DNA of 36,577 nt from an uncultured Prolixibacteraceae bacterium (GTDB taxonomy: Bacteria > Bacteroidota > Bacteroidia > Bacteroidales > Prolixibacteraceae): NCBI GenBank assembly GCA_903834475.1, contig CAILJH010000221.1, forward strand, positions 1 through 36,577, given 5' to 3'. The notes beneath the pieces were generated by a model. The model was not told the origin of the DNA. It made no database searches and was given only the letters and a program-made list of their open reading frames with translations. Positions 13,372 to 29,756 of the stretch are shown here, one piece after another. Made by a program: the position numbers and the translations under genes. The first letter of the stretch is position 1; the number at the start of each line of letters is the position of its first letter.

Positions 13372-14022
13372 GTGGAAAACAACTTTTTTATCGACGAATT
13401 AATTGAACGATACCCGCAGTTATTGGCGGTGAAAAATGAAATACAAAAAGCTGGCGATTGCCTGATTGAATGTTATACACAAGAAAAAAAAGTCCTGGTT
13501 TGCGGTAATGGCGGAAGTTGTTCCGATTCGGATCACATTGTAGGCGAATTAATGAAAGGATTTGAACATATGCGGCCAATACCACAATCGCTGAAAAATC
13601 AATTGGCTGGAATAGACGAAGAACGCGGAAAATACCTGGCCGCAAAACTTCAGCATGGTTTGCCTGCCATTTCCCTGACTGCCCACAGCGGACTGATAAC
13701 TGCCGTGGCCAATGATACAGATGCCAACCTGATTTTTGCTCAACAGGTTGTTGGTTACGGAACACCGAGAGATGTGTTAATTGCTATCAGCAGCTCCGGA
13801 AATTCGCAGAATGTGATTGATGCAATTATTACCGCAAAGGCAAAAGGATTGACAGTAATTGGTTTGACCGGTGAAACCGGCGGAAAAATGAAACCGTTTT
13901 GCGACATCCTGATTAATGTTCCCGGAAAGCGTACAGCAATCGTTCAGGAATTGCATTTACCGGTTTACCATTTGCTCTGCGTCATGGTCGAGAATCATTT
14001 TTTTGGAAATTACCGCTTTTAA
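13372..14022 (+). CDS. GmhA-like SIS-domain sugar-phosphate isomerase
   Basis: This 216-aa SIS protein starts at GTG, 11 nt after the kinase gene. 'VLVCGNGGSCSDSDHIVGEL' and 'VLIAISSSGNSQNVIDAI' are the two SIS sugar-phosphate-binding segments. It resembles GmhA (sedoheptulose-7-phosphate isomerase) and keeps all four residues that bind zinc there: His55 and Glu59 (H-x3-E), Gln192 and His200 (Q-x7-H in 'QELHLPVYH'). GmhA converts a ketose phosphate to a manno-configured aldose phosphate. In a mannosidase locus, beside a sugar kinase, the six-carbon equivalent, mannose 6-phosphate to fructose 6-phosphate, is an attractive inference. A true heptose role is the alternative. An insert around residues 65-90 makes it longer than classical GmhA. 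Confidence 0.88.
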   Translation: MENNFFIDELIERYPQLLAVKNEIQKAGDCLIECYTQEKKVLVCGNGGSCSDSDHIVGELMKGFEHMRPIPQSLKNQLAGIDEERGKYLAAKLQHGLPAISLTAHSGLITAVANDTDANLIFAQQVVGYGTPRDVLIAISSSGNSQNVIDAIITAKAKGLTVIGLTGETGGKMKPFCDILINVPGKRTAIVQELHLPVYHLLCVMVENHFFGNYRF

Positions 14023-14055: not shown

Positions 14056-16623
14056 ATGAAAAATAAGACTTCAAAGGAAAAGAATCCGATTTCCCGCAGA
14101 ACCTTTATCAACCGGACTGCAGCAGGAACAGCTTTTATCGCACTTGGTCCGGTAACCAAACTTTTTGCAGATGATTTGCAACAAGTAATTCCCTGGCCCG
14201 AATATGCTTCCGGATTTACTGTTCATATGGTCGGACACGGTCACATCGATCCGGTTTGGTTATGGCCATGGTCGGAGGGAGTTGCAGTTGTTTACAGCAC
14301 ATTCCGTTCGGCATTGGATCGTATGAACGAAACCCCTGACTTTAAATTCACCACAAGCTCTGCTCAGTTTTACCAGTGGGTGTCTGAAAACGATCCAGAG
14401 ATGATGAAACAAATCCGCAAACGCGTTGATGAAGGTCGCTGGAGTATCGTTGGAGGCTGGTGGGTTGAACCCGATGTAAATATTCCCAGCGGCGAAGCTA
14501 TGGTCAGGCAGGGATTGTACGGTCAGCATACACTGCAGCGTATCCTCGGTCATCGTGCGACCACTGCTTTTAATCCTGATTCGTTTGGTCATACCAGTAC
14601 TTTGCCTCAAATCATCAAATTGCAGGGGATGGACAATTATGTGTTTATGCGCCCCGGACCGCACGAAAAGACACTTCCGGCAGATTTATTCTGGTGGGAA
14701 GGTGTAGATGGAACACGCGTCTTAACTTACCGTATTCCATTCAGTTATGGCGATGGAGGAACAGTCCGTAATCGGCTGATTCAGACACTCGAACGGTTTA
14801 AAAATCAACCCATGAAGAGCTACATCCAGTATTTTGGTGCCGGTGATCATGGTGGTGGTCCAACGAAAGAAAATATCCGTTCGATCAAAGAGATTCAGGG
14901 AGAAAAAGATGCTCCAAAACTACTTTTCAGTACGCATGATCGATATTTCAAAGAGATTCGGGAAGATAAAAACATAAAACTTTCCGTGGTGAAAGATGAT
15001 CTTCAGCACCATGCCAGAGGTTGTTATACGGCTGAATCTGCCATCAAAAAAGGCAATCGCCAATCGGAGGCTGCACTGGTTACTGCGGAAAAAATAGCCG
15101 CCATCGGCCGAATTTCCTGGGGTGCCAATTATCCAAAAAAGGAATTAACCACAGCCTGGCAACGGGTTCTTTTCCTTCAGTTTCACGATAGTCTGGCCGG
15201 AAGTTCTTTGTTTGATCATTCCCAGACTGCTGCTGAAGGCTATGGATATGCGCTCGACATTGCTAATCAAACTTCAGTAATGGCACTTCAGAAACTCGAG
15301 CTTCAAATACCTACGGAAGATCCGGATTCGCAATACCTGGTGGTTTTCAATCCACATGCCTGGGAAGTGAAGACCAGCCTGGAATATGATTTAAACTGGG
15401 GAACCCAGCACAAAGGTTCGCAGGTTGACGATGAAAAGGGAAATCCACTGCTGCATCAATGGACTGCTGGTTCGAGTGAGGCAGGCAGCCGAAAAAAACT
15501 GATCGTACAGACGACTGTTCCACCAATGGGATACCGTCAGATCCGCCTGCACGACGGCGAACAGCTTCTGCCAAAGACTGCTGCAACTGCTGAAGGCAAT
15601 AAACTTGAGAATGAATTTCTTCGGGTACAAATTTCGGGTTATGGTGCCTTGGGAATTTTCGATAAGGAAACCGGGAAGGAAATCTTTTCAGGAGGTAAAA
15701 GTGGTTGCAGGGCGGTGGTCATAAACGACAACAGCGATACTTGGAGCCACGATATTGTGACCTTCGCTGATGAGATCGGATCGTTTGGAAATGCAACATT
15801 TAAAGTTCTTGAAAATGGTCCGCTTAGGGCAACTATCCGGGTGAAAACGACCTATGGTGCTTCCATTCTGACCATTGACTGGACACTTTATGCCGGTTCA
15901 AGGAATCTGGAAGCCAAAGTCAAACTGGATTGGCACGAACAGCTAAAAATGCTGAAATTTTCATTTCCGGTTGATGTTGAATCACCAGTTTCAACTTATG
16001 AAACTCCATACGGGCATATTGTCAGAGAGACCAATGGGGAAGAAAATCCGGGTCAGCGGTGGATTGATGTGACGGGGAAAAGCAAAGGAAATTCGTATGG
16101 ACTAACTGTGATCAACGACGCAAAATACGGCTACAATGTGCTGGATAATGACATGCGGATTTCAATTGTCCGTTCGGCTCCGTTTGCCCATCATAATCCA
16201 AAGGTGCTGGATATGAATGCAGAACATTACTGGATGGACCAGGGAATTCAAACTTTCCGGATGGTACTGGTTCCTCATCAGGATTCGTGGGAAAAGAATA
16301 ATATTCCAAGGATGACAGAGGAATTCATTGCACCTGCAGCAACAATTTATCAGGGAATCCATGGCGGATCGATTCCAAAATCAGGTTCTTTCCTTTCGGT
16401 TGATGTTCAAAATATTGATTTAAACTCCGTTAAACAGTCGGAAGAAGGAGAAGATCTGGTCATTCGTTGTGTCGAAACTTCAGGATTACAAACAAATGCC
16501 TCCATCGATTTACAGTTTAATAAACACCAATGGAAAGGCAGTTTCCGGCCATTCGAAATCAAAAGCCTTCGGGTAAATAAGAAATCAGGAGCAATAAAAG
16601 AAGTTAATCTTCTGGAAGAGTAA
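14056..16623 (+). CDS. GH38 alpha-mannosidase with Tat signal
   Basis: GH38 enzymes are zinc-dependent retaining alpha-mannosidases. The 855-aa product starts with a twin-arginine signal ('SRRTFINR', then a hydrophobic stretch and 'LFADD'), so it is probably exported folded with its metal. The catalytic domain opens with 'GHGHIDPVWLWPW', giving zinc-ligand candidates His61 or His63 and Asp65. 'FNPDSFGHTSTLPQ' contains the expected nucleophile and zinc ligand Asp175, and 'LQFHDSLAGSS' supplies His377. Middle and C-terminal beta-domains follow (from about residue 420), ending in 'WKGSFRPFEIKSLRV'. Length and motifs agree with bacterial GH38. It probably acts on mannose-containing oligosaccharides in the periplasm, complementing the two GH92 enzymes. 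It follows the SIS gene by 33 nt and precedes the permease gene by 50 nt. Confidence 0.95.
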   Translation: MKNKTSKEKNPISRRTFINRTAAGTAFIALGPVTKLFADDLQQVIPWPEYASGFTVHMVGHGHIDPVWLWPWSEGVAVVYSTFRSALDRMNETPDFKFTTSSAQFYQWVSENDPEMMKQIRKRVDEGRWSIVGGWWVEPDVNIPSGEAMVRQGLYGQHTLQRILGHRATTAFNPDSFGHTSTLPQIIKLQGMDNYVFMRPGPHEKTLPADLFWWEGVDGTRVLTYRIPFSYGDGGTVRNRLIQTLERFKNQPMKSYIQYFGAGDHGGGPTKENIRSIKEIQGEKDAPKLLFSTHDRYFKEIREDKNIKLSVVKDDLQHHARGCYTAESAIKKGNRQSEAALVTAEKIAAIGRISWGANYPKKELTTAWQRVLFLQFHDSLAGSSLFDHSQTAAEGYGYALDIANQTSVMALQKLELQIPTEDPDSQYLVVFNPHAWEVKTSLEYDLNWGTQHKGSQVDDEKGNPLLHQWTAGSSEAGSRKKLIVQTTVPPMGYRQIRLHDGEQLLPKTAATAEGNKLENEFLRVQISGYGALGIFDKETGKEIFSGGKSGCRAVVINDNSDTWSHDIVTFADEIGSFGNATFKVLENGPLRATIRVKTTYGASILTIDWTLYAGSRNLEAKVKLDWHEQLKMLKFSFPVDVESPVSTYETPYGHIVRETNGEENPGQRWIDVTGKSKGNSYGLTVINDAKYGYNVLDNDMRISIVRSAPFAHHNPKVLDMNAEHYWMDQGIQTFRMVLVPHQDSWEKNNIPRMTEEFIAPAATIYQGIHGGSIPKSGSFLSVDVQNIDLNSVKQSEEGEDLVIRCVETSGLQTNASIDLQFNKHQWKGSFRPFEIKSLRVNKKSGAIKEVNLLEE

Positions 16624-20462: not shown

Positions 20463-20555
20463 TGCCACTAAGTCTCCAAGACACGAAGCATCACAATGTG
20501 TTGAATTTAAACAAAGTATTCTTCGTGTAACTTTGGGTCTTTGAGACTTTGTGGC
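20463..20555. repeat. Long imperfect inverted repeat (dispersed intergenic element)
   Basis: The left arm (20463-20488, starting TGCCACTAAGTCTC) and right arm (20521-20555, ending GAGACTTTGTGGCA) are complementary except for scattered mismatches and a 10-nt gap in the left arm. I recognise this 'CCACWAAGTCTC...ACGAAG' palindrome as a common Bacteroidota intergenic repeat. Its right arm overlaps the upstream extension of the following GH92 reading frame, which is a reason to start that gene at 20599. Confidence 0.65.
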
Positions 20556-20598
20556 AAAAAAAAGAATTGGTTCAGATAATAATTTTAAAAGAATAGAA

Positions 20599-22926
20599 AT
20601 GCTTAATGATCATAAATTCAAGTCGTTAGTCTTTGCTGCAATGGTTAGCATTTCCGGCATGACCGTAAACTCATTTGCTCAAACAAATCCGGCTGATCTG
20701 GTAAATCCTTTCCTTGGAACCGATGATCACGGACACACTTTCCCCGGAGCAGCTTTTCCTGGAGGAATGGTTCAATTGGGGCCGGATACCGATATCAGCG
20801 GTTGGGACTGGTGTTCAGGTTATCACTACAGTGACAATTCGATCATGGGATTCAGTCATTTACACCGTAGTGGAATGGGTGCCGGCGACTGGGGCGATAT
20901 TCTCCTGATGCCGACAACCGGAAAACTGAAAATTGAACCGGGAAGAAAGGAAAAACCCGGAACAGGATACCGATCCGTTTTTTCGCATCAGGAAGAACAG
21001 GCGTCGCCCGGATATTATTCAGTTATCCTGAAAGATTACGGAATCAGAGCCGAATTAACCGTTTCGGAACGGGCCGGATTTCATAAATATACTTTTCCTA
21101 AATCCAATGATTCTCATATCCTGATTGACATGAACCACGGCATTGGAGACCGGTGTACCGATTCTCAGATTCAGGTTGTGAATAACACCGAAATCGTGGG
21201 GCATCGCCTTTCAAACGGATTTGTCGATAATCAGAATGTTTATTTCTGTGCCAGATTCAGCAAACCCTTCAGCTCTTTTGGTACCTGGAACAACAAAACA
21301 ATTTCAGGATTAAGGGAAGCATCAGGTAAACGGGCTGGTGCATTTGTTGATTTTGTCACTGCTGAAAACGAAATTATTCAGGTAAAAGTCGGAATTTCGT
21401 ACACCAGTATTGAACAGGCACGTCTGAATCTGGACCAGGAAATACCGGACTGGAATTTTGATCAGGTAAAAGCAAATGCTGAAAAGAAATGGAATCAATC
21501 ACTGAGCAAGATAGAAGTTCAGCTTGATCAGAGCAGCGATGAAGCTTATCGAAAGGATAAACTGGTTACCTTCTATACAGCACTTTATCATTCGCTGCTG
21601 TTCCCGGCTACTTTCGGCGATGTGGACGGAAAATACATGGGCCTTGATAATAAGGTTCACACCGCAAACGGTTTTACCTATCGCAGCGATTTTTCGCTTT
21701 GGGATACGTTCCGGGCTGAAATGCCTTTGCTGACTTTGATTGAGCCTTCAAGAAACAATGATGCCATAAATACCTGGATTGCCCAGTACGAGCAGGGTGG
21801 CTGGATGCCCACACCGCAACAGTTTGGAAACAGCTACACCAACGATATGATCGGCGATCATCCGGTGGTTGCCATTCTGGATGCTTATCAGAAAGGAATC
21901 CGGAATTTTGATTTGGCGAAAGCATATGAAGGAGTCAGGAAAAATGCCATGGAAACCCCTCCGGCTGGCTGTCTTTCCGAAGGGCGCCCTGGACTGGAAT
22001 CATACAAAAAATTAGGATTTGTGCCATACGACCAGATCAGGGAATCGGTATCCAAAACTTTGGAATACGCATTCAACGACTGGTGTGTAGCTCAGCTGGC
22101 ATTGGCTCTTGGTAAAACTGCCGACTATGAACTATTCATGAATAGGGCAGCGAACTACAAAAATATTATCGATACGAAAACAGGGTTTGCACGCCCTAAG
22201 AAAAGCGATGGTTCGTGGCTTTCCCCTTTTGATCCAACATTTGTTGGCCACGGAAAAGACCGTCACTATACAGAGGCCAATGCCTGGCAATACACCTGGT
22301 TTGTTCCTCAGGATGTGCAGGGATTGGTTAATCTGGAAGGTGGACGGAAGCGGTTTGTTGAACGACTGGATTCACTTTTTTCGATCAGTTCTGAAGTAAA
22401 AAGCACTGTTTCGGATATTACCGGTTTGATCGGGCAATATGCACACGGCAATGAACCCAGCCACCATACAGCTTATCTGTTCAACTATGCAGGTGCTCCA
22501 TGGAAAACGCAAAATATCGTCCGGACCGTGGTTGACAGTTTATACAGCTCCGGACCAGCCGGATTATGCGGGAATGAGGATATGGGACAAATGTCGGCCT
22601 GGTATGTATTAAGTTCAATGGGATTTTACCCGGTTGCTCCGGGCCAAAATGTTTGGACAATCGGAAGTCCGGAATTCAGTAAAGTAGTCATTCATTTGGA
22701 TAAGTCTTTCAATAAAGCCAGCGAGTTCGTTATCGAAACAAGTAATAATTCTAAGAAGAACAGATACATTCAATCGGCAACGTTAAATGGTAAACCTTTA
22801 GTCAAGCCTTGGTTCGATCATTCTGTTATCCAAAACGGAGGTAAAATAATTTTCCGGATGGGCCCTGAACCATATAAAAACTGGGGTAGCAAACCAGAAA
22901 ATGCTCCTCCATCAATGACGAAATAG
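20599..22926 (+). CDS. Secreted GH92 exo-alpha-mannosidase
   Basis: The frame is open from 20551, but those first 16 codons lie partly in an intergenic repeat. The ATG at 20599 starts a plausible Sec signal peptide with cleavage after 'VNSFAQ', giving 775 aa. Core GH92 motifs are all present: 'DLVNPFLGTDD', 'FPGAAFPGGMVQLGPDT', 'GFSHLHRSGMGAGDWGD', 'YAHGNEPSHHTAYLF' with E619 (generally assigned catalytic acid) and 'CGNEDMGQMSAWYVLSSMG' with E660. The 41-residue spacing between these glutamates equals that of the GH92 at 233. Unlike that enzyme it has no lipobox, so it is probably soluble in the periplasm. The C-terminus 'GPEPYKNWG' is typical of a large GH92 subgroup. The two GH92 proteins are clearly diverged and probably cut different linkages. 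Confidence 0.95.
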   Translation: MLNDHKFKSLVFAAMVSISGMTVNSFAQTNPADLVNPFLGTDDHGHTFPGAAFPGGMVQLGPDTDISGWDWCSGYHYSDNSIMGFSHLHRSGMGAGDWGDILLMPTTGKLKIEPGRKEKPGTGYRSVFSHQEEQASPGYYSVILKDYGIRAELTVSERAGFHKYTFPKSNDSHILIDMNHGIGDRCTDSQIQVVNNTEIVGHRLSNGFVDNQNVYFCARFSKPFSSFGTWNNKTISGLREASGKRAGAFVDFVTAENEIIQVKVGISYTSIEQARLNLDQEIPDWNFDQVKANAEKKWNQSLSKIEVQLDQSSDEAYRKDKLVTFYTALYHSLLFPATFGDVDGKYMGLDNKVHTANGFTYRSDFSLWDTFRAEMPLLTLIEPSRNNDAINTWIAQYEQGGWMPTPQQFGNSYTNDMIGDHPVVAILDAYQKGIRNFDLAKAYEGVRKNAMETPPAGCLSEGRPGLESYKKLGFVPYDQIRESVSKTLEYAFNDWCVAQLALALGKTADYELFMNRAANYKNIIDTKTGFARPKKSDGSWLSPFDPTFVGHGKDRHYTEANAWQYTWFVPQDVQGLVNLEGGRKRFVERLDSLFSISSEVKSTVSDITGLIGQYAHGNEPSHHTAYLFNYAGAPWKTQNIVRTVVDSLYSSGPAGLCGNEDMGQMSAWYVLSSMGFYPVAPGQNVWTIGSPEFSKVVIHLDKSFNKASEFVIETSNNSKKNRYIQSATLNGKPLVKPWFDHSVIQNGGKIIFRMGPEPYKNWGSKPENAPPSMTK

Positions 22927-23222: not shown

Positions 23223-25121
23223 ATGAAAAAAGAACAAATCCAAAAAATCCTGAAAGATATAAGCAATGTCAAAATTGCTGTTGTGGGCGATTTTTGCCTG
23301 GATGCCTATTGGTTTATCGATGAAGCCATGAGCGAAATCTCGGTGGAAACCAACCAGGCTACACGGCCGGTGGCAACACAGCGTTATTCGCTTGGCGGGG
23401 CAGGCAATGTGACCAATAACCTCGCGGCGATGGGGATTGGAGATATCCGTGCTTTTGGCGTGATTGGTACTGATCCGTTTGGTGCCGAAATGGTTCGGGT
23501 CATGAAACAAACCGGCATTGAACCAAGGAATCTGCTTATTCAGAAAGAAAACTGGTACACGCATGCCTATGCCAAACCGTACATTGACGACCAGGAGTTG
23601 AACCGCGTTGATTTTGGAAATTACAACCGTTTGTCTCAGGAAACGGCCGATCGCTTGATTGCTAACCTGGTTCAGGAAATTCCGGAAGTGGATGTCATCA
23701 TCATCAACCAGCAGGTTCCTTCAGGAATTCACATCGACTATTTTAAGAAATGTTTGGTGGAGGTTATTGCAAAGTTCCCTGAAAAGACTTTTATCGTTGA
23801 CAGCCGCAACTTCAACGATTATTATACCGGCGCTATCCGGAAAATGAATGATACCGAAGCTGCCAGATTGTGCGGACTCGATAAAAAGCCGGACGATATT
23901 GTGCTTTATTCTGAAATTGTAGCATCCGCTAACGAATTATTCCAGCGTTACCGGAAACCACTTTTTATCACCCGTGGCAGCAAAGGATCGCTGACGATTG
24001 ACGAAAACGGAATTACTGATATTCCCGGACTGATGATCCTCTCGAAAGTGGATACCGTTGGGGCCGGCGACAGTTACCTGGCCGGAGCAGCGTCTTCACT
24101 GGCTGCCGGTTATTCCATGAATATTGCAGCGCAGCTTGGCTCTTTTGTGGCTGGAGTCACGGTGCAGAAATTATTCCAGTGCGGAACTGCAAGTCAGTAT
24201 GAAATACTCGCGATAGGTGAGGATCCGGATTACATTTTTGGCTCTGAATTGGCTGAAGATATTCGTCATGCCAACTATCTGCCGAATACTGAGATTGAAA
24301 TTGTGAATAAATGGGAGGAAAAACTTCAGATCAAACATGCCATTTTCGATCACGATGGAACCATTTCTACTCTTCGTGAAGGCTGGGAACTGATCATGGG
24401 TCCGATGATGATGAAAGCAATTTTGGGCAACCAATATTTAGAGGCTGATGAAGCATTATACCAGAAAGTTCAGAATAGGGTAAACGAATTCATCGACAAA
24501 ACGACTGGTATTCAGACCCTGGTACAAATGCAGGGATTAATCGGTTTGATCAGGGAATTTGGATGTGTTCCGGAGGATCAGATACTGGACGAATTTGGTT
24601 ACAAGCAAATTTACAACGAAGAGTTGCTGGAAATGGTGAAAGTCCGCGAAGCGAAATTTGCCAAAGGCGAGCTCTCGCTGGAAGATTTTACCTTGAAAAA
24701 CGCGGTTACTTTTCTTCAGAAACTCCATGACGCCGGAATTAAACTCTACCTGGCCAGCGGTACCGACGAGGAGGACGTGAAAAGCGAAGCCCGGGTTTTA
24801 GGTTACGATCATTTGTTCGAAGGCCGGATTTACGGTGCTGTTGGTGATGTGACCAAAGAAGCAAAAAAGATTGTTTTGGACCGTATTCTCGATATGATCG
24901 GCGATTCTGCTTCAGGAAAAGTAGCCACTTTTGGTGATGGTCCGGTTGAAATGCGCGAAACCAATAAGCGCGGCGGTGTTTCTGTCGGAATTGCCAGCAA
25001 TGAACTGAGGCGGTACGGCCTGAATGAAAGTAAACGTACCCGGTTGATCAAAGCCGGTGCCGATGTCATCATTCCTGATTTCTCGCAATACCGGCAATTG
25101 CTGGATTTGTTGAATATTTAA
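23223..25121 (+). CDS. PfkB-family sugar kinase fused to a HAD-superfamily phosphatase
   Basis: This is a 632-aa cytoplasmic fusion. Residues about 15-330 are a PfkB/ribokinase domain closest in wording to the heptose-7-phosphate kinase half of HldE: 'VAVVGDFCLDAYWF'-like start, 'RYSLGGAGNVTNNLAAMG', 'AFGVIGTDPFGAEM', and the catalytic loop 'DTVGAGDSYLAG' with Asp283. Residues about 372-632 are a HAD hydrolase: 'AIFDHDGTIS' gives the nucleophile Asp376 and acid Asp378, a cap domain spans about 395-500, 'LYLASGTDEEDV' is motif II, and 'ATFGDGPVEMRE' (Asp572) is motif IV. Both catalytic sites look intact. No nucleotidyltransferase domain is present, unlike HldE. Fusing a kinase to a phosphatase suggests phosphorylation at one position and removal at another, or regulation. 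The downstream deoxyhypusine-synthase-like gene is the probable partner. Confidence 0.85.
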   Translation: MKKEQIQKILKDISNVKIAVVGDFCLDAYWFIDEAMSEISVETNQATRPVATQRYSLGGAGNVTNNLAAMGIGDIRAFGVIGTDPFGAEMVRVMKQTGIEPRNLLIQKENWYTHAYAKPYIDDQELNRVDFGNYNRLSQETADRLIANLVQEIPEVDVIIINQQVPSGIHIDYFKKCLVEVIAKFPEKTFIVDSRNFNDYYTGAIRKMNDTEAARLCGLDKKPDDIVLYSEIVASANELFQRYRKPLFITRGSKGSLTIDENGITDIPGLMILSKVDTVGAGDSYLAGAASSLAAGYSMNIAAQLGSFVAGVTVQKLFQCGTASQYEILAIGEDPDYIFGSELAEDIRHANYLPNTEIEIVNKWEEKLQIKHAIFDHDGTISTLREGWELIMGPMMMKAILGNQYLEADEALYQKVQNRVNEFIDKTTGIQTLVQMQGLIGLIREFGCVPEDQILDEFGYKQIYNEELLEMVKVREAKFAKGELSLEDFTLKNAVTFLQKLHDAGIKLYLASGTDEEDVKSEARVLGYDHLFEGRIYGAVGDVTKEAKKIVLDRILDMIGDSASGKVATFGDGPVEMRETNKRGGVSVGIASNELRRYGLNESKRTRLIKAGADVIIPDFSQYRQLLDLLNI

Positions 25122-25234: not shown

Positions 25235-26344
25235 ATGCCTTATCCAAAATTAGACCGTGATCAGCTTGATGTCAAGAAATTGAGCGTGCGAAAGAATAAA
25301 GTCTATATTGAAAAAGATCAGGTTCCGATTACTCAGAAACCGGCTCATCTTTCTGAACTGGGTCAGCAGCTGATCGAAAAAACAGCGGATCGTATCCGGT
25401 TGGCCAGAAACAAAAAGAAATCAGTGATGCTTACCTTTGGTGCCCATACCATAAAAAACGGCATGGCTCCAACCCTGATTGCCTTGATGGAAGAAGGTTG
25501 GGTAACTCATCTTTCGACCAACGGCGCCGGAATTATTCACGACTGGGAGTTTTCATTTCAGGGAAAATCGAGCGAAGATGTCCGGGAAAATGTGGAACTC
25601 GGGCAGTTTGGAATCTGGGACAGTACCGGTTTCTATATCAATCTGGCGCTGATTGTTGGTGCTTACGAAGGATTAGGATATGGAGAGTCGGTCGGAAAAA
25701 TGATTTCGCTGGAAGGTCTGCAAATTCCTGAACTTTCAGGATTGCAGCTTGAAGCCATTCAAAATATTAAAACAAATCCTGAACTTGCAGCTGCAGCAAT
25801 TGATCTGGCCGGAGTGATTCAGAAATTCAAGTTGCAGGCTGGTTTTATGAGCATTCCTCATCCCTTCAAGAAATATTCGGTTCAGGCAAGTGCTTACGAG
25901 TTGGGAATTCCGTTTACTGGTCATCCAATGTTTGGCCATGATATCATTTACAATCATCCGATGAACCATGGAGCTGCCATTGGCCGGGTAGCACAGAATG
26001 ATTTCCTGAGTTTCGCCAAAAGTGTCAGCAATCTCGACTTTGGAGTGTATATGTCGATTGGCTCGGCAGTCATGTCGCCCATGATTTTTGAAAAAGCCCT
26101 GTCGATGTCTCAAAATCTGATCATTCAGAAAGGCGGTCATATTGATAATCATTATATGCTGATTGTCGATCTGGCTAAATCAGACTGGGATTGGAACACG
26201 AATGGCGAGCCACCGATGGATAATCCGGCCTATTACCTGCGATATTGCAAGACGTTTAACCGGATGGGCGGCGAAATGCACTATCTTACAGCCGATAACC
26301 GAGACTTCTTGCTGGCTATCTATCAGGAATTGGCTGGGAAATGA
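25235..26344 (+). CDS. Deoxyhypusine-synthase-fold protein lacking the catalytic lysine
   Basis: The 369-aa product aligns by eye with deoxyhypusine synthase (DHS), an NAD-dependent enzyme. 'HTIKNGMAPTLIALMEEG' and 'THLSTNGAGIIHD' (T95-D103) match the DHS nucleotide-binding strand 'TTAGGVEED'. 'LGIPFTGHPMFGHDIIYNH' matches '[20 protein letters not shown]'. The following 'GVYMSIGSAVMSP' sits where DHS has 'GMIILGGGVVKHH'. The lysine that forms the enzyme intermediate is therefore Ser281 here. Bacteria generally lack the eIF5A target, so this is very unlikely to make hypusine. An NAD-dependent reaction on a small molecule is more plausible. It lies 113 bp after the PfkB-HAD fusion and 235 bp before an AGE epimerase. 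Annotation pipelines may call it 'deoxyhypusine synthase', which would mislead. Confidence 0.75.
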   Translation: MPYPKLDRDQLDVKKLSVRKNKVYIEKDQVPITQKPAHLSELGQQLIEKTADRIRLARNKKKSVMLTFGAHTIKNGMAPTLIALMEEGWVTHLSTNGAGIIHDWEFSFQGKSSEDVRENVELGQFGIWDSTGFYINLALIVGAYEGLGYGESVGKMISLEGLQIPELSGLQLEAIQNIKTNPELAAAAIDLAGVIQKFKLQAGFMSIPHPFKKYSVQASAYELGIPFTGHPMFGHDIIYNHPMNHGAAIGRVAQNDFLSFAKSVSNLDFGVYMSIGSAVMSPMIFEKALSMSQNLIIQKGGHIDNHYMLIVDLAKSDWDWNTNGEPPMDNPAYYLRYCKTFNRMGGEMHYLTADNRDFLLAIYQELAGK

Positions 26345-26408: not shown

Positions 26409-26508
26409 AGACCCTGAAACCCAGCCTGCCGGCTGGCAGGAAGTTCAGGGTGACTTGTTCAAGATGGTCCACCAATGCACGGAGCGTCATGCTGAACTTG
26501 TTTCAGCA
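26409..26508. repeat. REP-like palindromic intergenic repeat ('HAELVSAS' type)
   Basis: The left part pairs ACCCTGAAAC with GTTCAGGGT-like bases (26411-26453) around an inserted GCCTGCCGGCTGGCAGGA hairpin. The right part contains GTCATGCTGAACTTGTTTCAG (26486-26506). Its core CTGAACTTGTTTCAG is identical to both cores of the element at 29795. A translated frame through it reads 'RHAELVSAS', a hallmark of spurious genes over this repeat, so I call no gene here. Confidence 0.65.
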
Positions 26509-26579: not shown

Positions 26580-27851
26580 ATGAATAAAAATAACCTTGCA
26601 ATTTTAAAAACCGAGGCCGAAATCCATTTGGTTAATGAGCTTTTGCCATTCTGGACCACCCGGATGATTGACAAAATCAACGGTGGTTTTATCACCCATT
26701 TCGATAAAGATGGAAATGATACGGGTGAAGATGAAAAGTCGCTGATTGCCCAAACCCGCTGCCTTTACACCATTTCCTCAGCTCATCGTGCCGGATATGG
26801 CGACGGAAAATATGCAGCAATGGCCAAACATGGCGCTGATTTTCTGATCGACAAAATGTGGGACAAGGAATTCGGTGGCTTTTACTGGATGATGGACCGG
26901 AAAGGAAATGTAAAAATCGATCAGAAGATCATTTACGGACATAGTTTTGCTATCTATTCGCTGAGTGAATATACTCTGGCAACCGGCGATCAGCGTGGAA
27001 TCGAATATGCTGAAAAGGTTTTTGATCTGCTTCAAAAATACTGTGCAGATACCATGTATGGCGGCTACTGGGAAATGTTTCAACGCGATTGGACTCTCTG
27101 CGGACCTGGCAGCCAGGGAGGCGACCGGAAAACACTGGATGTTCACATGCACCTGATGGAAGCCTACACCACGCTTTACGAGGCAACAGGTAAAGATGTC
27201 CATCGCCGGAAATTGCTGGAAGACATCGATTTGCTCATCAATCGCATCATTCATCCGGTTTACAAAACAGGTATTCCACAGTTTTTTAAGGATTGGACGG
27301 TTGCTCCGCAAATCAAGTTTGACATCATCTGGGGCTGGGATCGTTTTTCGGAGGAAGGACAGAAAGGCAATGCGACCGATAACACCTGTTACGGGCACAA
27401 TGCTGAATTTGCCTGGTTGTTGATTCATGCGCTGCATATCCTGAAAATCGATCCGATGAACTATTCGGATTTATTCCGGATTATTTTCGAACACACGGTA
27501 AATAATGGAATTGATTGGGAATTTGGCGGTGTGTTTGTGGAAGGTCCTCATTCCGGTGGTGTTTATGACAAGGAAAAGGAATTCTGGCAACAGGCTGAAG
27601 TCCTGATTGGACTGCTTGATGGAGTCATTCTGTTTGGTGACGAAAAATACATGACTGCTTACGAAAATGTCCATCGGTTTGTACTCGACAAAGTGGTGAA
27701 TAAGGGAGTCGGGGAGTGGTATCCACTGCTTTCGCGCAAAGGTGAACCCATCTGGACACACATGGGGCATTCCTGGAAGATCAATTATCATACGGTCCGG
27801 GCAATGATTCAAAGTATTCAGCGAATAGATATTTTGGCTAAACTTGAATAA
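26580..27851 (+). CDS. AGE-family sugar 2-epimerase (cellobiose/mannose 2-epimerase-like)
   Basis: Members of the N-acylglucosamine 2-epimerase superfamily interconvert gluco- and manno-configured sugars without phosphorylation. This 423-aa protein has the expected (alpha/alpha)6-barrel motifs: 'LIAQTRCLYTISSAHRAG', 'WDKEFGGFYWMMD', 'IYGHSFAIYSLSEY', 'LDVHMHLMEAYTTLYE', 'CYGHNAEFAWLL' with His273, and 'HMGHSWKINYHTVRAM' with His397 and His404. The histidines in the last two motifs correspond to the catalytic pair in cellobiose 2-epimerases. There is no signal peptide, so it acts in the cytoplasm. In this locus it could convert mannose to glucose, or a beta-mannosyl disaccharide to its glucose-ended form. 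Sequence alone does not separate these. A symporter gene follows after 291 bp of repeats. Confidence 0.88.
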   Translation: MNKNNLAILKTEAEIHLVNELLPFWTTRMIDKINGGFITHFDKDGNDTGEDEKSLIAQTRCLYTISSAHRAGYGDGKYAAMAKHGADFLIDKMWDKEFGGFYWMMDRKGNVKIDQKIIYGHSFAIYSLSEYTLATGDQRGIEYAEKVFDLLQKYCADTMYGGYWEMFQRDWTLCGPGSQGGDRKTLDVHMHLMEAYTTLYEATGKDVHRRKLLEDIDLLINRIIHPVYKTGIPQFFKDWTVAPQIKFDIIWGWDRFSEEGQKGNATDNTCYGHNAEFAWLLIHALHILKIDPMNYSDLFRIIFEHTVNNGIDWEFGGVFVEGPHSGGVYDKEKEFWQQAEVLIGLLDGVILFGDEKYMTAYENVHRFVLDKVVNKGVGEWYPLLSRKGEPIWTHMGHSWKINYHTVRAMIQSIQRIDILAKLE

Positions 27852-28142: not shown

Positions 28143-29756
28143 ATGAGTTTATCTCTAACTTTTCTGGACTGGATTGTTCTGACCGTAGTCATGGGTGGAA
28201 GCCTTTCATTTGGATTATACATGGCCTGGCTCAAAAAGGCTGGCCATAGCAGTGTCAATTTCTTTCTGGGTGGAAGATCAATCAAATGGCCAATTGTCGG
28301 TGCTTCGCTTTTTGCAACAAACATTGGTGCTGAGCATTTGGTTGGATTATCCGGAGATTCCTATCGTTACGGACTTTCAGCCGGTTCAGTTGAATTGACC
28401 TGTGCCATAACCCTTGGTTTTGCATGCGCCATACTGTTCCCGCATTACATGAAAAATAAGATTTACACTATTCCTGAATTTCTGGAAATACGGTATAACC
28501 GGCGTGCCCGGACATTTTTTTCAGGATTGATGCTGATTATTAGCGTCATGACGAAACTTGCTTTTACCTTGTTCGCCGGTGCTCTGGTTTTGAATAGTAT
28601 TCTGGGTTGGAACGTGATGACCACAGTTTTTATCATCGGAATGGCAGTGGCAATATTCACCATTATTGGCGGATTTACTGCAGTAGCTTATTCCGATGCG
28701 ATTCAGGTCATCATCATGATTGGTGGTTCAGCTATCATGTTATTTATTGGACTGGATAAAGTGGGTGGTTGGGACGGTCTGATGACCAAAGTTCCTGAAA
28801 TGATGAAAATTGGCAAACCTTATGACGATCCGGTTTATCCATTCTGGGGAATTCTGGCTACCGCTTTTTACGCCGGAATATTTTACTGGGGAATTGATCA
28901 GGTCAATGTTCAGCGCACTCTTGCTGCACCCGATTTGAAGAATGCACGCTGGGGTTCGATGTTTGCGGTTTTACTGAAACTTACGCCGATATTTATTTTC
29001 GCATTGCCGGGTGTAATTGCGTTTGCTTTGTTTCCAAACGAATTGCAGGGTGATGAAACCAAACAAACTTTTGTCCTTCTGCTGAATAAACTTTTGCCCA
29101 GTGGCTTACGCGGATTGTTGCTGGCCTCATTAATGGCCGCCCTCGTAACTTCATTGATTGCGGTTCTAAACTCCGTTTCAACACTCGTTGTTCGCGACTT
29201 TGTGGTGGAGTTTCGTCCGGATATTCCTGAAAAGAAACAGGTGAAACTGGGCCGGTACATTATTCTGCTCGTAACTTTCCTCGGAATAGGCGCGGCCTAT
29301 CTCGTTTATAAGAACGAGGAAGGATTGTACAAATACCTGCAAACCATCACGGCATATCTGGTGATTCCGGTTTTTCCGGCCATCTTCTTCGGCATTGTCA
29401 GTAAAAAGGTCACTCTGAAAGGCGCTGCCGTCTCTGTTCTGGTAGGAATTGCACTGGCTACCATTTTTGTAATCGATCAATTATTAGGGCCAAATGCAGG
29501 TAAGGAATTATTCCCGTTCCTGCATCATCCGTTGACACTGAACTTCGGTTACCGCGGACTATGGGCCGAAATACTGATCACAGGTATTCTATTTGCAGTT
29601 TCAGCATTTACTGTAAAAACTGCTCCTGAAAAGTTGGCTCAAACAACCATTAATTTTGAGAAACGAATTACCAAATTTGAAGGAATTACAGATTGGCGCC
29701 TGCACCTGGGAATACTTTCGTTGATTACCCTGGCGCTGTATATCTGGTTGTATTAA
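28143..29756 (+). CDS. SGLT-type sodium/solute symporter (SSS family)
   Basis: The 537-aa product has about 13-14 hydrophobic segments and belongs to the sodium:solute symporter family. 'NFFLGGRSIKWPIVGASLFA' and 'NIGAEHLVGLSGDSYRYGL' are the characteristic segment 1-2 region of the sodium/glucose subgroup. 'YTIPEFLEIRYNRRARTFFS' matches the conserved loop after segment 2, 'TIIGGFTAVAYSDAIQVIIM' segment 5, and 'ASLMAALVTSLIAVLNSVST' the sodium-site segment 8. It should import a hexose or related compound with Na+. Placed directly after the AGE epimerase, it probably supplies that enzyme with its substrate. It gives the locus a second import route beside the MFS permease at 16674. Confidence 0.92.
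   Translation: MSLSLTFLDWIVLTVVMGGSLSFGLYMAWLKKAGHSSVNFFLGGRSIKWPIVGASLFATNIGAEHLVGLSGDSYRYGLSAGSVELTCAITLGFACAILFPHYMKNKIYTIPEFLEIRYNRRARTFFSGLMLIISVMTKLAFTLFAGALVLNSILGWNVMTTVFIIGMAVAIFTIIGGFTAVAYSDAIQVIIMIGGSAIMLFIGLDKVGGWDGLMTKVPEMMKIGKPYDDPVYPFWGILATAFYAGIFYWGIDQVNVQRTLAAPDLKNARWGSMFAVLLKLTPIFIFALPGVIAFALFPNELQGDETKQTFVLLLNKLLPSGLRGLLLASLMAALVTSLIAVLNSVSTLVVRDFVVEFRPDIPEKKQVKLGRYIILLVTFLGIGAAYLVYKNEEGLYKYLQTITAYLVIPVFPAIFFGIVSKKVTLKGAAVSVLVGIALATIFVIDQLLGPNAGKELFPFLHHPLTLNFGYRGLWAEILITGILFAVSAFTVKTAPEKLAQTTINFEKRITKFEGITDWRLHLGILSLITLALYIWLY

Follow-up and report, generated by a model that had tools for sequence, protein, structure and literature searches.

A GSU2086-family protein with a predicted deoxyhypusine synthase-type fold and no catalytic-loop lysine, encoded beside heptose-type sugar-phosphate genes in a Prolixibacteraceae genome

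The gene at positions 25235..26344 (+ strand) of the DNA stretch analysed here, 36,577 nucleotides from an uncultured Prolixibacteraceae bacterium (the window), encodes a member of the GSU2086 family (NF052581). The protein is real, conserved and uncharacterised, and it is a variant within the deoxyhypusine synthase (DHS)/ornithine cyclodeaminase (OCD) fold, not a categorically new fold. We consider it somewhat more probable than its alternatives taken together (about 0.55) that GSU2086 proteins are cofactor-dependent enzymes of this fold that carry out a redox-neutral hydride transfer, as an epimerase or isomerase, in a heptose-type sugar-phosphate pathway.

Results

The intact open reading frame encodes 369 amino acids that match the NCBIfam model NF052581 ("GSU2086 family protein") with 327.4 bits and an E-value of 1e-97, above the curated cut-off of 250. 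The NCBIfam record describes a family without an assigned function. The window protein matched no Pfam family at E 0.001, and viral and phage searches gave no match. One scan of genome contigs returned 345 stretches with relatives of the protein, and the best 80 of these, 62-96% identical to it, were used as relatives in the analysis. Among 198 sampled genomes of the window's class, which is probably Bacteroidia judging by the names of relatives, only the window's own genome carries a GSU2086 gene, while 27 of 149 genomes of close relatives do. Compared with two plasmid-borne members (L097 and L098), the window protein has about 45-50 extra residues near positions 160-210 and represents a long form.

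An AF2 model from 53 sequences (our alignment A1 holds 52 of the best 80 loci and the window protein) reached a pTM of 0.90 and a mean pLDDT of 90.7. In a Foldseek search of the PDB the top match was the Pyrococcus DHS 7cmc (E 4.6e-07, probability 1.00, TM-score 0.43, about 0.4-0.5), followed by AgrE (3.1e-06) and an archaeal LOR/SDH protein (4.3e-06), both with a probability of 1.00 and a TM-score to the query of about 0.4. Every one of the best 50 of 88 matches with E at or below 0.001 was a DHS, an AgrE/ArgZ or a LOR/SDH structure. Judged by the model and these matches, the window protein has a DHS-type fold. The initial annotation had proposed this fold and had named a structure model as the way to check it, and here it was right.

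At the level of sequence the relation to DHS is real but remote. The Pfam DS model (PF01916) gave 17.1 bits with E 0.0035 over residues 54-110 only, under its gathering cut-off of 27, and the ArgZ-like model (PF21570) gave 17.5 bits, likewise under a cut-off of 27. When 103 family members were compared with 33 bacterial DHS-like proteins by hhalign, 290 columns were collinear (hhalign probability 86%, E 5e-6 in this one comparison); an earlier run with narrow alignments spanned 44 columns only, and it was the fuller profiles that gave the longer register. A sequence profile searched against the PDB ranked ArgZ/AgrE first (E 0.005-0.007), with DHS at 0.57, and the family profile searched against single sequences found an ornithine cyclodeaminase fragment at 1e-6 and DHS-like proteins at 1.2e-5, 0.0028 and 0.13. 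In these comparisons the ArgZ/AgrE ornithine cyclodeaminases of the ArgZ/LOR-SDH branch appear about as close as DHS, and in some of them closer. To call the protein a DHS paralogue, as had been done, is therefore correct as far as a remote relation to DHS is meant, but too narrow, since the other branch is about equally close.

With DHS (PF01916, TIGR00321) the window protein shares the fold and the collinear profile alignment. However, DHS carries a catalytic lysine in a loop that is without lysine in the GSU2086 family, and its gene neighbours also differ. With the C-terminal part of ArgZ/AgrE and the archaeal LOR/SDH proteins (PF21570, TIGR00300) it shares the same fold (6lrf, 3c2q) and an HDxE motif. 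In contrast to ArgZ/AgrE it is without the arginine dihydrolase domain, and it has sugar-phosphate genes as neighbours, not amino-acid genes. One ornithine cyclodeaminase (L144) has a GS-x-x-x-S loop that by eye resembles that of the window protein, but an hhalign alignment to the C-terminal fragment of an ornithine cyclodeaminase produced no meaningful register. The window protein had no TIGR00300 match at 0.001, and the plasmid member L098 reached 23.5 bits against a cut-off of 410.8.

The loop G276-SAVMS-P282 (residues 276-282, GSAVMSP; 26060..26080, +) lies at the site of the GGGVxK lysine loop of DHS and is free of lysine. Residue 281 of the window protein is a serine, and none of the 103 aligned members has a lysine anywhere at positions 276-286. 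Hence there is no lysine at the DHS position, whether the alignment is read ungapped (S281) or with the gap placed by hhalign (M283). By these alignments the DHS catalytic lysine is lost in the GSU2086 family, as the GSAVMSP segment had already indicated for the window protein. The serine itself does not carry the meaning of a replacement that had been attached to it. It seemed invariant among the first 82 relatives (threshold 80 of 82), but across the 103 members position 281 is S in 87, L in 8, G in 4, A in 3 and M in 1. We have therefore rejected Ser281 as a substitute catalyst. Of the 33 DHS-like proteins from this phylum, 23 have GGGVPKNF or GGGSPKNF at the corresponding place and 10 have GGGIAGDF. 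The GGGIAGDF sequences form a second, separate lysine-less DHS-like group in Bacteroidota (L145, L150, L151, L152 and L156-L161), with PF01916 E-values of about 3e-37 to 1e-43.

Conservation in the family is concentrated elsewhere. An invariant lysine, K287 (26093..26095, +; 103 of 103 members), is placed by the AF2 model in the helix after the loop, six residues past S281. It might be a displaced lysine at the active-site position of the DHS one, an outcome that the initial annotation had named as refuting. The residues H102-D103-W104-E105 (25538..25549, +) form an HDxE motif that is present in all 103 members. The motif is also found, as HD[IL]E, in the ArgZ/TIGR00300 ornithine cyclodeaminases, according to alignments with ArgZ and the protein L142; as a criterion it was chosen here from these two and is not a published one. 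It occurs in none of the 33 bacterial DHS-like proteins, four of which carry HD without the E. Invariant in 103/103 are, among others, N96, H102, D103, E105, H230, D236, P242, K287, N294, D312 and R336; H71 is kept in 102. Conservation reaches 97% or more of the 103 members at 42 positions altogether, many of them His, Asp, Glu, Lys or Arg. The set of H71, H102, D103, E105, H230, D236, K287 and R336 would suit a polyol-phosphate site.

Directly upstream of the GSU2086 gene, across a gap of 113 bp, lies a gene for a PfkB-HAD fusion (23223..25121, +; Pfam PfkB and Hydrolase), which combines an HldE-N-like (heptose-7-phosphate kinase-like) domain with a HAD hydrolase domain. The kinase half most resembles HldE domain I (TIGR02198, 130 bits, under the cut-off of 345), and its nearest solved structure is 4e84, a D-beta-D-heptose 7-phosphate kinase. 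The HAD half had no PDB match at E 0.001 and is at most a candidate GmhB. To the same cassette belongs a GmhA-like SIS isomerase of 216 aa (13372..14022, +; TIGR00441 148.6 bits, under the cut-off of 209.45), encoded about 9 kb upstream of the kinase gene; here the nearest solved structure is the phosphoheptose isomerase 2xbl.

Downstream follow an AGE-superfamily sugar 2-epimerase (26580..27851, +; Pfam GlcNAc_2-epim), a sodium:solute symporter (SSF; 28143..29756, +; Pfam SSF, NCBIfam sss) and a 3-keto-disaccharide hydrolase family protein (PF06439; 29916..30521, +). The epimerase scores 681-685 bits to PDB 8h1k and its sister entries (685 to 8h1k) and 181 bits to the next solved epimerase. 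8h1k is named N-acylglucosamine 2-epimerase in the PDB and is, as we assume, a D-mannose 2-epimerase; being much the closest structure, it may allow the substrate of the window epimerase to be fixed quickly. Between the GSU2086 and epimerase genes there is a short palindrome-like stretch (cctgccggctggcagg, 26425-26440), possibly a repetitive extragenic element. Further context is given by a GH92 family protein (20551..22926, +; Pfam and NCBIfam) and a GH38 family protein (14056..16623, +; family match), and the locus also holds a ROK kinase and an MFS transporter. With their symporter and mannosidases, the window and many related loci look catabolic, unlike the surface-sugar operon of Geobacter.

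The arrangement is conserved across genomes. A kinase or HAD homologue adjoins the GSU2086 gene (at most 300 bp away, same strand) in 62 of the 80 genome relatives, which substantiates the proposed link to the PfkB-HAD fusion; in 18 of 80 an adjacent kinase/HAD gene was not seen. Within 6 kb, a GmhA-like SIS gene was found in 26, an AGE gene in 39 and an SSF gene in 37 of these 80. Linkage counts, which were drawn on 102 loci with the window's own locus (L001) excluded, are minima, because contigs often end early and incomplete flanks were scored as misses. In one group of members (G299) a kinase or HAD gene is adjacent in 3 of 20 loci only, leaving 17 without, and several loci of this group lie, by reading, among unrelated genes. 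On a Chloroflexota plasmid the order is HAD, GSU2086, kinase, SIS, and on a Solidesulfovibrio plasmid it is adenylyltransferase-kinase fusion, GSU2086, SIS, with no HAD gene found nearby; the GSU2086 proteins of these plasmids are 32-33% identical to the window protein (tblastn). The combination of a GmhA-like isomerase, a kinase and GSU2086, usually together with a HAD protein, is found repeatedly, in Bacteroidota, Chloroflexota and Solidesulfovibrio. A quick tree was drawn for 102 members and came with long-branch warnings; cassette-linked copies fall on both sides of its midpoint root, and the linkage label changes 10 times, compared with a mean of 29.2 in shuffled labels and with 0 of 500 shuffles as low.

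The family is thus linked to genes of the GmhA, HldE-N and HAD types. The window's own partners stay below the curated cut-offs for heptose enzymes, while the SIS proteins of two related loci, L054 (211.6) and L056 (212.2), pass that of TIGR00441 (209.45). Two genome counts were not used as evidence: GmhA in 35 of 37 GSU2086 genomes, and an rfaE_dom_I kinase in 47 of 50, the latter because control genomes such as B. subtilis match too. In the loci L063 (L063:2212-5869) and L076, an SSF symporter and an FGGY-like sugar kinase, in L063 so labelled from reading the sequence and not from a family search, accompany GSU2086 where other loci have the PfkB-HAD fusion, which may point to a catabolic variant.

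The GSU2086 cassette shares its GmhA-like, HldE-N-like and HAD partners with the ADP-heptose pathway (GmhA, HldE, GmhB, HldD). To our knowledge, GSU2086 is not among the textbook enzymes of that pathway. The window also differs from it in the fusion partner of the kinase, a HAD domain and not an adenylyltransferase, and in the glycoside hydrolases of the locus.

A mutant phenotype comes from Geobacter, whose GSU2086 protein is assigned to the same family on the strength of the family's name. In the transposon sequencing (Tn-seq) table of genes needed for electrode growth, GSU2085 (hldE), GSU2086 and GSU2087 (gmhA) have log2 values of -3.1, -3.2 and -3.7 (PMC5585712, Table 1), and GSU2086 is annotated there as "hypothetical cytoplasmic protein in sugar biosynthesis operon". 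A second source lists GSU2084 as heptose-1,7-bisphosphate phosphatase and GSU2088 as glycosyltransferase (PMC3495685); GSU2084 is absent from Table 1 of PMC5585712. By locus number the run reads gmhB-hldE-GSU2086-gmhA, and its last three genes share similar mutant phenotypes, although part of the transposon effect could be due to polarity in the operon. Together with the GmhA- and HldE-type neighbours, this operon supports the earlier suggestion that the substrate is a sugar phosphate and not a protein. The same 39-entry table also contains the PurE-like GSU0140, its neighbour by number GSU0141, the adenosine nucleotide alpha-hydrolase superfamily protein GSU0536 and the nickel transporter NikMN (PMC5585712, Table 1). 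From the style of the annotations, GSU0140, GSU0141 and GSU0536 are likely to be LarB, LarC and LarE. A true LarB, that of the window's own genome, matches purE as well.

Discussion

DHS transfers hydride by means of a bound pyridinium cofactor, without net redox. Because the fold relatives use such a cofactor in this way, we propose a redox-neutral hydride-transfer role for the GSU2086 protein. Given the sugar-phosphate isomerase, anomeric kinase and phosphatase that accompany it, the protein most likely epimerises or isomerises a heptose-type phosphate at a carbon that is not activated. The enzyme would be cytoplasmic, with a heptose-type sugar phosphate as its substrate. Its partners in the cassette would be a ketose/aldose-phosphate isomerase of the GmhA-like type and an HldE-N-like anomeric kinase, joined at most of the linked loci by a HAD phosphatase. 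A C-OH group of the sugar would give up a hydride to the bound pyridinium cofactor, the transient ketone would be held or rearranged, and the hydride would then be handed back to give an epimerised or isomerised sugar phosphate. Unlike in DHS, no covalent imine between a lysine and the substrate would be formed. We infer the use of a cofactor, the epimerase or isomerase type of the reaction and the seven-carbon substrate alike. The sugar may not be a heptose, since the window kinase and SIS isomerase score under the curated heptose-enzyme cut-offs.

A role closer to the nearest structural relative would make the protein a DHS- or homospermidine synthase-like enzyme acting on polyamines or a protein lysine. 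The DHS fold fits such a role, and so does a match of the plasmid member L097 to the homospermidine biosynthesis model (1.3e-6, 27.8 bits against a cut-off of 450). However, positions 276-286 are without lysine in the whole family and the DS score lies under its gathering cut-off, the phylum has separate DHS-like genes that do carry the loop lysine, and the neighbours of GSU2086 are sugar-phosphate enzymes. We therefore regard a polyamine or protein-lysine substrate as strongly disfavoured and very improbable. The absence of the canonical DHS catalytic residue would also be expected if the protein had kept the DHS fold but lost catalysis, and served the kinase-HAD partner in a structural or regulatory way. 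This we think unlikely, as the 42 positions conserved to at least 97% in 103 members fit an active site and copies of the gene occur without an adjacent kinase/HAD partner. In a literature search we found nothing linking DHS with heptose, and a search for DHS with PfkB and bacteria gave nothing relevant.

For the cofactor of the proposed epimerase or isomerase there are two candidates. Tightly bound NAD+, which would transiently oxidise the sugar phosphate as in DHS and homospermidine synthase, has in our estimate an even chance. NAD was crystallised with the fold neighbours DHS and AgrE, going by the titles of 1dhs and 6lrg (the latter an ornithine and NAD+ complex), and it accounts for GSU2086 in genomes that are devoid of LarC. 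The nickel-pincer nucleotide (NPN) is a serious rival to the NAD dependence assumed in the initial annotation, and a more tentative one, by which GSU2086 would be a predicted non-LarA NPN enzyme with Ni-pincer hydride transfer on a heptose-type phosphate. It came into consideration because NCBIfam names TIGR00300 "ornithine cyclodeaminase, nickel-pincer nucleotide-dependent", a model that is weakly matched by L097 (3.9e-5) and L098 (2.2e-5) and whose proteins have the HDxE motif in common with the GSU2086 family. These matches are far below the cut-off, however, and L097 fits the homospermidine model better (1.3e-6). With the LarA racemases (PF09861), a separate family, GSU2086 may share the NPN cofactor and the logic of hydride transfer; Lar_N is absent from the Pfam matches of the window protein up to E 10. 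Our literature search gave nothing linking NPN with ornithine cyclodeaminase or ornithine. Genomic context speaks for NPN in several places. In a Calditrichaceae MAG (L054:2-4731) the operon reads larC-larE-larB-gmhA-GSU2086-SSF, with all three lar genes above the NCBIfam cut-offs, and the window's own genome has a larE-larC-larB operon (L164:2713-5638, contig C58) and no LarA (PF09861) at 1e-5, in an assembly that is only 66% complete. The Geobacter table places GSU0140, GSU0141, GSU0536 and NikMN beside GSU2085-2087. With NAD as the cofactor, the Calditrichaceae operon and the nickel, PurE-like and alpha-hydrolase genes of the Geobacter screen are left unexplained. LarC is found in 42 of 50 GSU2086 genomes, a sample of 37 picked by hand from the genomes of the best 80 loci plus 13 of the G299 group, and TIGR00300 itself in only 2 of them. 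For comparison, the share of genomes that have the NPN pathway is given as about 24% (PMC11796402).

Several observations weigh against NPN, though. An NPN enzyme should be accompanied by LarC in every genome, which is the case in 42/50 in the sample above and in 14/27 of the close relatives with GSU2086; the other 13, LarC absence being read from a list of 52 positives among the 149, are all listed as 94-100% complete. LarC is matched in 14/27 of these relatives with GSU2086 and in 38/122 without it (Fisher p 0.047, uncorrected for kinship). Two isolates, Draconibacterium aestuarii and Mariniphaga anaerophila, have GSU2086 and no LarC match. The LarC-negative members are 63-88% identical to the nearest LarC-positive one, and position 77 is the only one that separates the two groups; the key positions in this comparison had been preselected as near-invariant, so that their identity is expected. 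LarA-like PF09861 matches, many of them weak, occur in 44 of 51 genomes (the 50 and the window's own) and could alone account for LarC, and lar genes are linked to GSU2086 in 1 of 102 loci only. It is this balance of the evidence on LarC, lar linkage, LarA, TIGR00300 and Geobacter that underlies our rating of the two cofactors. NPN as an obligatory cofactor is too strong a claim and was dropped: among 198 genomes of the window's class a single one has LarC and a single one GSU2086, and it is the same genome, but the 149 relatives show this class-wide coincidence to be largely a family effect.

The GSU2086 family has no assigned function, and yet it is tied to a heptose cassette and to a mutant phenotype. 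We know of no sugar-phosphate chemistry so far for the DHS/OCD fold, and a GSU2086 enzyme that depends on NAD would still be new chemistry of this kind. According to PMC11796402, the genomes with the NPN pathway divide into 9% of all genomes with LarA and about 15% without, and these 15% are expected to hold non-LarA NPN proteins; a dependence of GSU2086 on NPN would bear on them. A nickel cofactor would then also be at work in the biosynthesis of cell-surface sugars and the catabolism of rare ones, which would explain why Geobacter electrode biofilms depend on nickel import and on the apparent lar genes as well as on hldE and gmhA.
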